A DNA stretch of 44,428 bases from Thermoleophilia bacterium. GTDB lineage: Bacteria > Actinomycetota > Thermoleophilia > Miltoncostaeales > Miltoncostaeaceae. Made by a program: the position numbers and the translations under genes. The stretch covers positions 1 to 44,428 of the forward strand of contig JADGPF010000076.1 of NCBI GenBank assembly GCA_017882585.1, written 5' to 3'. Of this stretch, positions 27,640 through 31,701 are shown piece after piece. The notes beneath the pieces were generated by a model. The model had not been told where the DNA came from. It worked only from the letters and a program-made list of their open reading frames with translations, and searched no databases. The first letter of the stretch is position 1. Every line of letters begins with the position of its first letter.

Positions 27640-29409
27640 TCACCCGGGCGGAATGCCCAGCCGGATCAGCGCCATCGACGCGATCTGGCTGAACGCCGGC
27701 GCGGCCACGGTACCGCCATACGTGCCAACCCCCGGCTCGTCCACGGTGACCACGATGACCAACCGCGGATGGTTGGCCGGAACGTAGCCCGCGAACGAGG
27801 ACACGAACAGTGAATTGCTGTACTTGCCGTCGCTCCCGATGACCTGCGCGGTGCCGGTCTTGCCGGCCACTGAGTAGCCCTTGACGGTCGCTGCATCGCC
27901 GGTGCCCCGCGTGGAGACAACCTTGCGCAGCATTCCGTCGAGCTCTTGCGCGGTGGTGACGGAGATGATCCGCGGGCCCGCCGGATAGGCCACCGGCTTG
28001 CCCCCCACCTTGGCCACGAGATGCGGCGTGACCAGGCGGCCGCGGTTGGCGATCACCGAGAATGCGCGCGCGATCTGGAGCTGGGTCGCAGACACCCCCT
28101 GCCCGATCGGGACGTTGCCGATCGAGACGCCGGACCAGCCCGGGCCCTGGTACTGGGGGAAATAGCCCGTGCTCTCACCGGGATAGTCGATGCCGGTGGG
28201 ACGGCCGAAGCCGAACTTGGAGACCCAGCCGGCCAGCGCAGGGTAGCCGACGCGCTCCGCGACCTTGATGGTGCCGATGTTGCTCGAGCGCTCGAGGATC
28301 TCGGACACCGACCACACCTTGGTGCCGTGGGATTCGGCGTCGTGGATCTTGACGTCGAAGAGCGGCAGGACGCCCGGGACCGCGATCCTGGTGCTGGGCG
28401 TCACGAGGCCCTCCTGGATCGCACCGGCCATGGTGACGATTTTGAAGATCGAGCCCGGCTCGAACTGGTCGGTGACCGACCGCAGGCGGGCAGTCGCGGG
28501 ATCGAACTGGGCGCGGTCGTTCGGGTTGTAGCCCGGTGAGGTCGCCATCCCGAGGATCGCACCGGTCTGGGGCTGCATCACGATGCCGCTGACCGACTTT
28601 GCCCGGAACTGCGCCTGCGTGGCCGCGAGGATCGACTCGAGGTTGGCCTGAATATTGGAGTCCAGGGTGAGCTGGATGGTCTCGCCGGGCCTGGCGGGGG
28701 TGCTCTTGACCGTCGACAGTGCCTGACCCTGGGGGTCCTGGTTCTCGATCACCACCCCGGGCGTTCCGGTCAGCGCGGTGTTGTACTGCTGCTCAAGCCC
28801 CGACAGACCACCGGTGTCGCCGACGAGCCCGAGGACCTGGGCGGCGAGGTCGCTATTCGGCAGATCGCGGGCGAACGAGTCTTGGACGCTGATGCCGCTG
28901 ATCCCCAGGTTCCGGACCGCGTTCCCGACCGACTGGTTGAGTCCCTGCGCGACGACCGAATAGCCGCCGGTCACGATCAGCTTTGCCAAGATCGCGCTCT
29001 CGGGCACCTTCAGTAGCGGGGCGAGCCGCATGGCGTCCTGCTGGGCGTCGGTGACCAGATACGGCGTCGCCACAACGGTGTCGCTGAGCCGATCGAACGC
29101 CAGCTCATAGCCGTTTCGGTCGACGATCGCTCCGCGCTGGCCGGGGCTGACGACGGTCTTCTCCTGCTGGCTTGCCGCGACCGCCGACAACCACCCCGAG
29201 TCGACCGTGCCGAGCCAACCGGCCCGGGCAATCATCAGTGCGACGCCGACGACGGCGAGCGCACCGAGCAAGCGGATCCTGCGCGATCCCTCGCGCCGGG
29301 TGATCGCCGGAGGCTTCGCGGACCGGCGCCGACGCGACGTCGGGCGCTGTCGCTGGCGGGAGCCACCGGTCCCAGAGCGACGCGAACGCGAACTCGGGCG
29401 TCGGTCCAT
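27640..29409 (-). CDS. ftsI: Penicillin-binding protein / septal transpeptidase FtsI
   Basis: SxxK (GSIFK), SxN (SSN), KTG (AGKTGTAQ); N-terminal basic region plus TM; dcw position. Confidence 0.93.
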   Translation of the reverse strand: MDRRPSSRSRRSGTGGSRQRQRPTSRRRRSAKPPAITRREGSRRIRLLGALAVVGVALMIARAGWLGTVDSGWLSAVAASQQEKTVVSPGQRGAIVDRNGYELAFDRLSDTVVATPYLVTDAQQDAMRLAPLLKVPESAILAKLIVTGGYSVVAQGLNQSVGNAVRNLGISGISVQDSFARDLPNSDLAAQVLGLVGDTGGLSGLEQQYNTALTGTPGVVIENQDPQGQALSTVKSTPARPGETIQLTLDSNIQANLESILAATQAQFRAKSVSGIVMQPQTGAILGMATSPGYNPNDRAQFDPATARLRSVTDQFEPGSIFKIVTMAGAIQEGLVTPSTRIAVPGVLPLFDVKIHDAESHGTKVWSVSEILERSSNIGTIKVAERVGYPALAGWVSKFGFGRPTGIDYPGESTGYFPQYQGPGWSGVSIGNVPIGQGVSATQLQIARAFSVIANRGRLVTPHLVAKVGGKPVAYPAGPRIISVTTAQELDGMLRKVVSTRGTGDAATVKGYSVAGKTGTAQVIGSDGKYSNSLFVSSFAGYVPANHPRLVIVVTVDEPGVGTYGGTVAAPAFSQIASMALIRLGIPPG

Positions 29410-29413
29410 CGAC

Positions 29414-29821
29414 CTACGGCGTCGGGTTCGGGGCGCTCAGGAACGTCACCTGGGACGCAACCTCCTGTTTCATCCCCAGTTTGCGCGAGGCTGCGATGCG
29501 TACCTGCGCGTCTGTTTGCTGCAGCGCCTGATTGAGGTTGACGATCTCCGACTGCGCCTCGGTGGTGCGCTGAAGCGTGAGGCTCGAGCGCGTCGAAAGG
29601 CGCAGCGTCGTGGCATTGAGGAAGACGATCCCACCGAGCGTGACCGCCAGGGCAGGGGCCCATGCCCAGCGGACCAACAGCCGGGTGCGACGCCGCTGCC
29701 GCGTCCGTGGCTGCGGGCGCGTGGACGGCCGGCGCGACGGACTTGTGTGTTCGAGCGGCCGGGTTCGGGCAGGAGCCGTCCGCCGCCGTGCGGGGGCGGT
29801 CGCTCGCGCTCGGACGCTCAT
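29414..29821 (-). CDS. ftsL: FtsL-like bitopic cell-division protein
   Basis: Arg/Pro-rich cytoplasmic N-terminus, one TM, short coiled-coil, ARKLGM-type C-terminus; between rsmH and ftsI. Confidence 0.75.
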   Translation of the reverse strand: MSVRARATAPARRRTAPARTRPLEHTSPSRRPSTRPQPRTRQRRRTRLLVRWAWAPALAVTLGGIVFLNATTLRLSTRSSLTLQRTTEAQSEIVNLNQALQQTDAQVRIAASRKLGMKQEVASQVTFLSAPNPTP

Positions 29822-30756
29822 ACGGACTCCAACTTGCGCACCGCGCGCAGGCGGGCCGAACGCGATCGAGGGTTGCGATGGGACTCGGCGGCGCTCGGCA
29901 TGATCGCGCGAGTGTTGAGCAGCGCGCCGTCGGGAGTGCGCCCGCATCCGCAGGCCGGCATGTCCGGCGGGCAAATGCAGCCTTGCGCGCGTGCCCGCAT
30001 GAAGCGCTTGACGATCCGGTCCTCAAGCGAATGGAAGCTGATCACGGCAAGAACGCCGGTCACCGCCAGCAGGTCGAACGCCGATTCCAGCGCGTGCGGC
30101 AGGAGCTCAAGCTCGGCGTTCACGACGATGCGCAGCGCCTGGAAGACCCGCTTGGCCGGATGCCCGCCGGCGAACAACGCGCCCGCCGGAACCGCGGACC
30201 GGACGACTTCGACGAGGTCGGCCGTCGTCATGATCGGCGCGGTCGCCCGGCGGCGCACGATCGCCCGGGCGATCTGGCGCGCATAGCGCTCCTCTCCGTA
30301 CTCGCGGAACCACCGCGCGAGGTCGGCCTCGGGCGCCTCGGCGACGAGCGTCGCCGCGGAGATCGGTTGGCTCGGGTCCATGCGCATGTCAAGCGGCGCC
30401 TGGCGGGCATAGGAGAATCCGCGCTCGGGCCGGTCGACCTGCATCGACGAGATGCCGAGATCCATCAGAATCGCGTCCGCGTGAACGCCGTCCTGGACCA
30501 ACTCGTCGAGCGCGACGGCGAAGTTGGCACGCTCGAAGCGCGTCTCGCACGACGTGCGGGACGCGAATGCATCGAAGAACGGACGGACGTCGGGGTCCTG
30601 GTCAATGGCGACGTACAGACCGTCGGATCCCAGTTCCTCGGCGATCCGCTGCGCGTGACCCCCCGCACCGAACGTGCAGTCGACCACGGTCTGACCCGGC
30701 TGCGGTCGCAGCAGGTCCAGGACCTCGTCGGCCAGCACCGGCTCGTGGACTGTCAT
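29818..30756 (-). CDS. rsmH: 16S rRNA (cytosine1402-N4)-methyltransferase
   Basis: HEPVLADEVLDLL, DCTFGAGGHAQRI, DLGISSMQVDRPERGFSY, FHSLEDRIVKRF. Confidence 0.95.
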   Translation of the reverse strand: MTVHEPVLADEVLDLLRPQPGQTVVDCTFGAGGHAQRIAEELGSDGLYVAIDQDPDVRPFFDAFASRTSCETRFERANFAVALDELVQDGVHADAILMDLGISSMQVDRPERGFSYARQAPLDMRMDPSQPISAATLVAEAPEADLARWFREYGEERYARQIARAIVRRRATAPIMTTADLVEVVRSAVPAGALFAGGHPAKRVFQALRIVVNAELELLPHALESAFDLLAVTGVLAVISFHSLEDRIVKRFMRARAQGCICPPDMPACGCGRTPDGALLNTRAIMPSAAESHRNPRSRSARLRAVRKLESV

Positions 30757-30760
30757 CGCG

Positions 30761-31210
30761 TCACCCAACGCGATCGGCAAGACGCTTGGCACGGGCCGAT
30801 ACCCCCTCTCGACGAAGCGCTGTAAATCGATCCGCGAGACGGTCGCCATCCCAGACCTCCAGATACTCGCCTGCCCCAACGACCTTCACACGCGATTCCA
30901 GACCCGCGTGCTCCCGGAGCTCGGCCGGCAGCAGAATCCGGCCCTGGCGGTCCAGGTCCTGTTCGAACGCCCCCGCCGACAGAAACCGGCTCAGTTCGCG
31001 TCCTTCGTCGTCGAGGACACTCATCGCCCCGAACGTGCGCTCGATGAGGCCCGCCCAGTCACGGCGCGGCACGATAATCAGGCATTCATCGATCCACCAG
31101 CCCACGACGGCGCCACCGATAAACGGCTCCCGCAGCCGTGCCGGAATCGCCATCCGGAAGCGGTTGTCGAGGCTGCATTCGTGGGTCCCTGTCAGCAACC
31201 GGCGCTGCAT
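30761..31210 (-). CDS. mraZ: Transcriptional regulator MraZ
   Basis: LLTGTHECSLDNRFRMAIPARLRE and DRQGRILLPAELREHAGL SpoVT/AbrB-like repeats; first gene of dcw. Confidence 0.93.
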   Translation of the reverse strand: MQRRLLTGTHECSLDNRFRMAIPARLREPFIGGAVVGWWIDECLIIVPRRDWAGLIERTFGAMSVLDDEGRELSRFLSAGAFEQDLDRQGRILLPAELREHAGLESRVKVVGAGEYLEVWDGDRLADRFTALRREGVSARAKRLADRVG

Positions 31211-31213
31211 GTG

Positions 31214-31239
31214 CCCCACCGTACCCCACATCTCCCCAC
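31214..31239 (-). promoter_or_regulatory. Three MraZ-binding-type boxes (GTGGGG x3, 10-nt period)
   Basis: CCCCAC on plus strand at 31214-31219, 31224-31229, 31234-31239, directly upstream of mraZ. Confidence 0.85.
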
Positions 31240-31314: not shown

Positions 31315-31328
31315 CGAACATGTGTTCC
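31315..31328. promoter_or_regulatory. LexA/DinR-like SOS box 1: CGAACATGTGTTCC
   Basis: Matches CGAACRNRYGTTYC at all positions. Confidence 0.75.
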
Positions 31329-31338
31329 GTCCGAGGGG

Positions 31339-31352
31339 CGAACTAATGTTCG
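31339..31352. promoter_or_regulatory. LexA-like SOS box 2: CGAACTAATGTTCG
   Basis: Perfect CGAAC-N4-GTTCG dyad (mycobacterial-type SOS box core), overlaps a TAATGT -10-like element at 31344-31349. Confidence 0.75.
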
Positions 31353-31356
31353 GTAC

Positions 31357-31701
31357 ATGACTGGAACCGTGCACCACCTCCACGCTCACCGGCACCACCA
31401 GACGCCCCGCCTGACCGTGGTCGCCACCCCCACCCCGCGTCGTCGCCCGATGTCCGCGAACCTGGCCCTGTTCGGGGTTGGACTGACGCCGGGTTTCATC
31501 CTCGCCGCAGCCGTATCCGCGCAGGGCGGCGCCGCCATGGTCCAAACCGCGCTGGTTTTAGCCGGCATCTCGGCCGCGGTCACGGTTGCGGCCGGCGTGC
31601 GTGCCCGACAGATCGCACGGCGGCGCGAGCGGCGGCTGCGTCAGCGCGAACGCCAGCGACCGACGGTGCGCACGCCGGTTTCGATGCGCCGCGCGGCCTA
31701 A
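31357..31701 (+). CDS. Small His-rich/Arg-rich membrane protein, candidate SOS-regulated gene (alternative start 31450)
   Basis: HHLHAHRHHQ N-terminus, hydrophobic segments LALFGVGLTPGFILAAAVSA and AAMVQTALVLAGISAAVTVAAGV, basic C-terminus; SOS-like boxes immediately upstream. Confidence 0.7.
   Translation: MTGTVHHLHAHRHHQTPRLTVVATPTPRRRPMSANLALFGVGLTPGFILAAAVSAQGGAAMVQTALVLAGISAAVTVAAGVRARQIARRRERRLRQRERQRPTVRTPVSMRRAA

Follow-up and report, generated by a model that had tools for sequence, protein, structure and literature searches.

A small membrane protein gene with a damage-controlled type of promoter beside mraZ in Miltoncostaeaceae: a candidate inhibitor of cell division

The stretch of DNA analysed here (the window, 44,428 nt) is a contig of a 1.74-Mb MAG, 82% complete, that belongs to the family Miltoncostaeaceae (Thermoleophilia). 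It carries mraZ, after which come rsmH, a 186-aa ORF that occupies the place of ftsL (no Pfam match), ftsI and Mur ligases, indicating that the locus is the start of the dcw cluster. A first-pass annotation of the sequence had placed a 114-aa ORF divergent from mraZ, and the match of this neighbour to Pfam MraZ confirms the arrangement. The features of the locus are as follows:

27640..29409, minus strand: ftsI-type transpeptidase (Pfam Transpeptidase and PBP_dimer)
29818..30879, minus strand: rsmH (mraW) (Pfam Methyltransf_5)
30761..31231, minus strand: mraZ, first dcw gene, with its start perhaps at 31210 (Pfam MraZ, 4.5e-25)
31215..31239, minus strand: three GTGGG repeats at 10-nt steps, before mraZ (repeat pattern)
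31315..31328, plus strand: LexA box 1, CGAACATGTGTTCC (sequence match; kept upstream of orthologues)
31329..31333, plus strand: GTCCG, proposed PafBC-type -26 element (fixed spacing to the -10 element; same element in recA promoters)
31339..31352, plus strand: LexA box 2, CGAACTAATGTTCG, overlapping the -10 element (sequence match; kept upstream of orthologues)
31344..31349, plus strand: -10 element TAATGT, 7 nt before the ATG, leaderless start predicted (TANNNT geometry in family loci)
31357..31701, plus strand: ORF of 114 aa, putative damage-controlled small membrane protein (homologues, family profile, dN/dS)
31450..31518, plus strand: predicted TM helix 1, about residues 32-54 (hydropathy; AF2 helix, low confidence)
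31537..31593, plus strand: predicted TM helix 2, about residues 61-79, continuing as a basic helix (hydropathy; AF2 helix 59-100, low confidence)
31687..31698, plus strand: C-terminal RRAA, candidate degron (AA end in 13/16 orthologues; family tmRNA tags)

The GTGGG repeats before mraZ are presumably MraZ-binding sites (MraZ boxes). A MraZ scan of viral contigs gave no match.

Among 61 genomes searched, all three congeners have a homologue of the 114-aa ORF (46-52% identity), as do many further genera of the family. We also searched 299 Thermoleophilia genomes with a family profile, which matched 37 of the 42 Miltoncostaeaceae genomes and all 12 genera; three weak and short matches among the 257 genomes outside the family were rejected as homologues. 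The dN/dS ratio between close orthologues ranges from 0.08 to 0.39, with changes mostly at third positions. The homologues, the profile matches and these ratios show that the ORF is a real gene. In most of the retrieved family loci it lies divergent from mraZ, and the gene order beside mraZ is held over 12 genera, while the protein itself has diverged to about 25-50% identity. Within Miltoncostaeaceae, the gene is by these comparisons nearly universal, fast-evolving and locked beside mraZ. Three records titled Bifidobacterium breve MAGs (L070, L081 and L084) contain a Miltoncostaeales-type mraZ together with the small membrane gene, and their titles look mislabelled.

Sixteen orthologues were used for the comparison of the protein. 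They are 96-142 aa long in the alignment, up to 147 aa in other orthologues, and have a basic N-terminal tail of about 30-40 residues followed by two hydrophobic segments according to hydropathy, in line with the small membrane protein proposed earlier. The loop between the segments is short, with a charge of 0 or -1, and the net charge of the C-terminal tail is +4 to +14, so that both tails should be cytoplasmic by the positive-inside rule. The hydrophobic segments and the basic C-terminus pointed out in the first-pass annotation are thus conserved, whereas the His-rich N-terminus that it also described is peculiar to the MAG sequence. Invariant residues are few, namely the start Met, two glycines in the first TM and one Arg after the second. 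An LxxVxxP-like motif in the N-terminal tail is kept in many orthologues, and those of genus g9 (e.g., L073:2906-3331) have a longer C-terminal tail with a conserved KPVLVHSRDEFRPVLV segment, modelled by AF2 as two strands at low confidence.

Although the length of the C-terminal tail varies greatly, 13 of the 16 orthologues end in AA, mostly as RRAA, compared with 3 of 31 long ORFs in the window. The tmRNA tags of the family, read from relatives, end in LALAA; no tmRNA was found in the MAG. The RRAA end is a probable degron.

No significant match for the 114-aa ORF was obtained in Pfam, NCBIfam, PADLOC, PHROGs or the PDB, and none of these collections supplied a homologue with a known function. 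We dismissed SepX/GlpR (E 3.2), Tmemb_14 (E 0.011) and phrog_28121 (E 0.002, in one member) as matches due to chance or to low-complexity TM sequence. AF2 gave a helical hairpin at low confidence in two runs (pLDDT 64 and 62), for which Foldseek returned no structural neighbour. LysM is absent from all 16 orthologues, as had been noted for the single sequence.

Upstream of the gene, the two LexA boxes are 24 nt apart and the second ends 4 nt before the ATG at 31357; the boxes, their spacing and the overlap with TAATGT all lie where the first-pass annotation had placed them. Allowing at most one mismatch, CGAACN4GTTCG occurs 8 times in the window against 2.7 expected, a count reached in 0 of 100 shuffles, and perfect palindromes of this form number 8 in the whole MAG against 2 for a reversed control pattern. 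We examined 28 named mraZ loci of the family; in 27 the divergent gene is preceded by one or more LexA boxes, in most by two, and the starts of paired boxes are 23-27 nt apart. This conservation in relatives rules out a chance origin of the two boxes. One large genus has a decayed box 2, CGTACATTTGTTCG, displaced by 3 nt, and even there the -10 element (TACATT) ends 7 nt before the ATG.

The MAG has one LexA match, and its lexA carries the box CGAACAGGTGTTCT about 30 nt upstream. Perfect LexA boxes also lie upstream of recA, dnaE2 and an imuB-like polymerase gene, so the scan near lexA and recA suggested earlier finds the box at both. As far as sequence can tell, the box before the 114-aa ORF is the LexA box used by the MAG itself, and this ORF is, in silico, a member of the LexA (SOS) regulon. 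The boxes of the imuB-like and dnaE2 genes (L004 position 366 and L005 position 1501) abut the ATG (CGAACATATGTTCGATG), and repressor binding over the start region may be a frequent feature of this SOS regulon. At another locus (L003 positions 1501-2353), a LexA box is followed by a small ORF and then by an O6-methylguanine-DNA methyltransferase-like gene.

In the core promoter, a TANNNT element lies 6-8 nt from the ATG in 28 of 29 family loci; of 28 promoters, 24 have its last T 7 nt from the ATG, and the others have it at 6 or 8 nt. This spacing fits a leaderless mRNA starting at the ATG, the architecture already suggested for the single promoter. Leaderless starts are common in actinobacteria and account for 26% of the M. 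tuberculosis genes with a primary start site (PMC3898074).

Moreover, the promoters contain a conserved GTCCG at -26, unremarked in the first-pass annotation, that points to a second damage regulator, PafBC. GTCC[GA]-N10-TANNNT is present in 28 of 29 family loci, and no locus has it with a spacing of 5-9 or 11-15. In mycobacteria, PafBC is activated by ssDNA and acts with sigma-A polymerase in recognising a -26 motif (PMC11804915); this motif reads tTGTCRgtg-8nt-TannnT (PMC5656591), and some genes, including recA, combine LexA and PafBC control (PMC8223512). The distance from the G of GTCCG to the T of the -10 element is 15 nt, equal to that in the mycobacterial promoter, and GTCnG matches in register, the identity being confined to GTCnG (4/5 positions). 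The MAG encodes PafBC as a fusion protein of 703 aa (two WYL domains, WCX and HTH_PafC), which matches the solved PafBC (PDB 6sj9) over its length (E 5.3e-31).

For the -26 element, GTCCG-N10-TANNNT replaced an initial pattern that had additional fixed bases. In recA promoters of the family, GTCCG-N10-NANNNT occurs in 17 of 29 loci against 0.47 expected (0-5 at other spacings), and the stricter GTCCG-N10-TANNNT in 5 of 30 against 0.04; the loci in these and the small-gene counts are phylogenetically related and few fixed positions are matched. The element was not seen in the recA promoter of the MAG itself. Genome-wide, the -26 motif alone is not enriched in the MAG (15 sites against 18 for the control). 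A GAACN4GTTC box adjoins four of these 15 sites (3 independent), where about 0.01 is expected by a simple estimate. We conclude that the 114-aa ORF probably belongs in silico to the PafBC regulon, beside its LexA control. The same kind of arrangement is seen at L042 and L051 (G000:C3:4633-4666 and G000:C78:10355-10388), the same promoter on two contig ends, where a LexA box is directly followed by GTCCGG-N9-TAGCCT upstream of a ~92-aa protein with a C-terminal AA and no Pfam match. At L056 (G000:C105:24377-24412), GTCCG-N10-TACCCT lies next to GAACAGATGTTC upstream of a ~100-aa basic protein, whose gene is a candidate for another doubly damage-controlled gene.

Could the operators serve other purposes? 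Since the intergenic region is common to both genes, LexA might repress or modulate mraZ and the dcw cluster through these boxes, the ORF being incidental. A LexA box beside mraZ is absent from the genomes of other families except G048, of another Thermoleophilia family, where a perfect box, CGAACAGGTGTTCG, lies just upstream of mraZ and no small membrane ORF is seen (L164); in that genome, LexA perhaps controls dcw directly. In Miltoncostaeaceae, the distance from the box to mraZ varies from 77 to 436 nt across the family loci while that to the ATG of the small gene is fixed, which assigns the operator to the small membrane gene, and the ORF is under purifying selection. We therefore regard control of mraZ as a very improbable purpose of the boxes. 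It is also unlikely, though less so, that LexA is the sole regulator and GTCCG a part of its operator or an ordinary promoter spacer. Such an explanation would suit the position of GTCCG between both boxes, a match to the mycobacterial motif at GTCnG only, and the missing enrichment of the motif alone. Yet GTCCG stands at an invariant spacing from the -10 element, whereas the gap to box 1 differs by 2 nt between loci and box 2 is shifted in register by 3 nt, indicating that GTCCG is tied to the -10 element. In addition, the element recurs at equal spacing in recA promoters with differently placed boxes, and PafBC is encoded in the MAG.

Joint control by LexA and PafBC, a regulatory reading for which the in silico support is good, leads to the following model, which builds on gene conservation, the boxes, the -26/-10 geometry, the two hydrophobic segments and synteny. 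In undamaged cells, LexA would occupy box 1, just upstream of the -26 element, as well as box 2, over the -10 element, and keep the promoter silent. Upon damage, RecA-driven cleavage of LexA would free the promoter, and activated PafBC would probably engage sigma-A polymerase through GTCCG, giving a leaderless mRNA that starts at the ATG. The protein would form a hairpin in the membrane, its two basic tails facing the cytoplasm, and its TM helices could block a late divisome component, FtsW, FtsI or FtsQLB. A ClpXP-type protease might then clear the protein via the conserved RRAA and allow recovery.

The small membrane protein would thus be damage-inducible and represent a new, Miltoncostaeaceae-specific family, most likely arresting division until the DNA is repaired, a reading to which we give an even chance. 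For the division inhibition itself, which the first-pass annotation had also put forward, the balance is about even too, on the basis of regulation, dcw synteny and precedent: small SOS membrane proteins (YneA, ChiZ, SosA and SidA) block late division, several probably through FtsW (PMC13396833). We favour it because the dcw synteny is persistent and no LysM-type gene was seen beside lexA (L009 and other loci); the neighbours of lexA are a tRNA-Leu-like gene and a selD-like ORF, and the 114-aa ORF adjoins mraZ, not lexA. Against it, the synteny could be inherited gene order, and known inhibitors have one TM (with an extracellular LysM in YneA and ChiZ), while the present protein has two predicted TMs and no extracytoplasmic domain. 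SOS regulons include membrane proteins with other roles, and the protein could instead serve the envelope, transport, DNA uptake or a membrane repair complex, its place beside mraZ reflecting inherited order only. The sequence indeed offers no tie to any divisome protein, but the order on the mraZ side has been held over 12 genera despite divergence to about 25-50% identity, and small SOS membrane proteins of known function mostly block division; we consider a role outside division rather unlikely. Still less likely is a membrane toxin resembling TisB, a 29-aa single helix, that would depolarise or slow damaged cells and promote persistence. Small size, hydrophobicity, basic charge, LexA control and two operators for tight repression are all in keeping with such a toxin, and leaderless transcripts are frequent among M. 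tuberculosis toxin-antitoxin modules (PMC3898074). On the other hand, no antitoxin gene or antisense RNA was identified, and a protein of 96-147 aa with long tails, encoded by a near-universal chromosomal gene, differs from the short TisB.

Several actinobacterial lineages are without recognisable SOS division inhibitors, and a study of the Streptomyces LexA regulon describes the mechanism coupling repair and division as still unidentified (PMC9380542). For one such lineage, a concrete candidate is now provided by a family-wide, synteny-locked membrane protein with predicted double damage control. A further prediction from the promoter is that a checkpoint-type gene of Thermoleophilia comes under PafBC, whose mode of control was worked out in mycobacteria; the local -26 sequence GTCCG is usable for regulon prediction. 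As a more specific and more tentative proposal, somewhat short of an even chance, we suggest a new family of SOS division inhibitors defined by a two-helix hairpin, a dcw-side position, two-site LexA repression with PafBC activation at one promoter, and an RRAA degron.

The promoter resembles those of mycobacterial genes under LexA and PafBC (e.g., recA; PMC8223512), which likewise combine a LexA box, a -26 element and a TANNNT -10 element. It differs in having two LexA boxes, which flank and overlap the core promoter, GTCCG as the -26 element, a predicted leaderless start and a product other than a repair protein. YneA of Bacillus subtilis and ChiZ (Rv2719c) of Mycobacterium are likewise small LexA-controlled membrane proteins and share the proposed brake on division. 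They have one TM and an extracellular LysM, and yneA is near lexA, whereas the Miltoncostaeaceae protein has two predicted TMs, lacks LysM and is encoded beside mraZ. SosA (Staphylococcus) and SidA (Caulobacter) are also SOS-controlled, LysM-free small membrane proteins. SosA (77 aa) spans the membrane once and has its C-terminus outside the cell, where CtpA cuts it, in contrast to the Miltoncostaeaceae tails and candidate degron, which are predicted to be cytoplasmic. The single TM of YneA, ChiZ, SosA and SidA is replaced by two hydrophobic segments in the 16 orthologues (hydropathy), consistent with the structurally distinct member of this class envisaged earlier. DivS of Corynebacterium glutamicum is likewise actinobacterial and LexA-controlled, a division suppressor without homology to YneA; it is encoded near lexA (PMC3989709), the present gene beside mraZ, in a comparison by regulation and gene position. 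The Miltoncostaeaceae protein, with no LysM, two predicted TMs and a gene that is not beside lexA, is not a homologue of YneA, ChiZ or SosA, but it may work like them.
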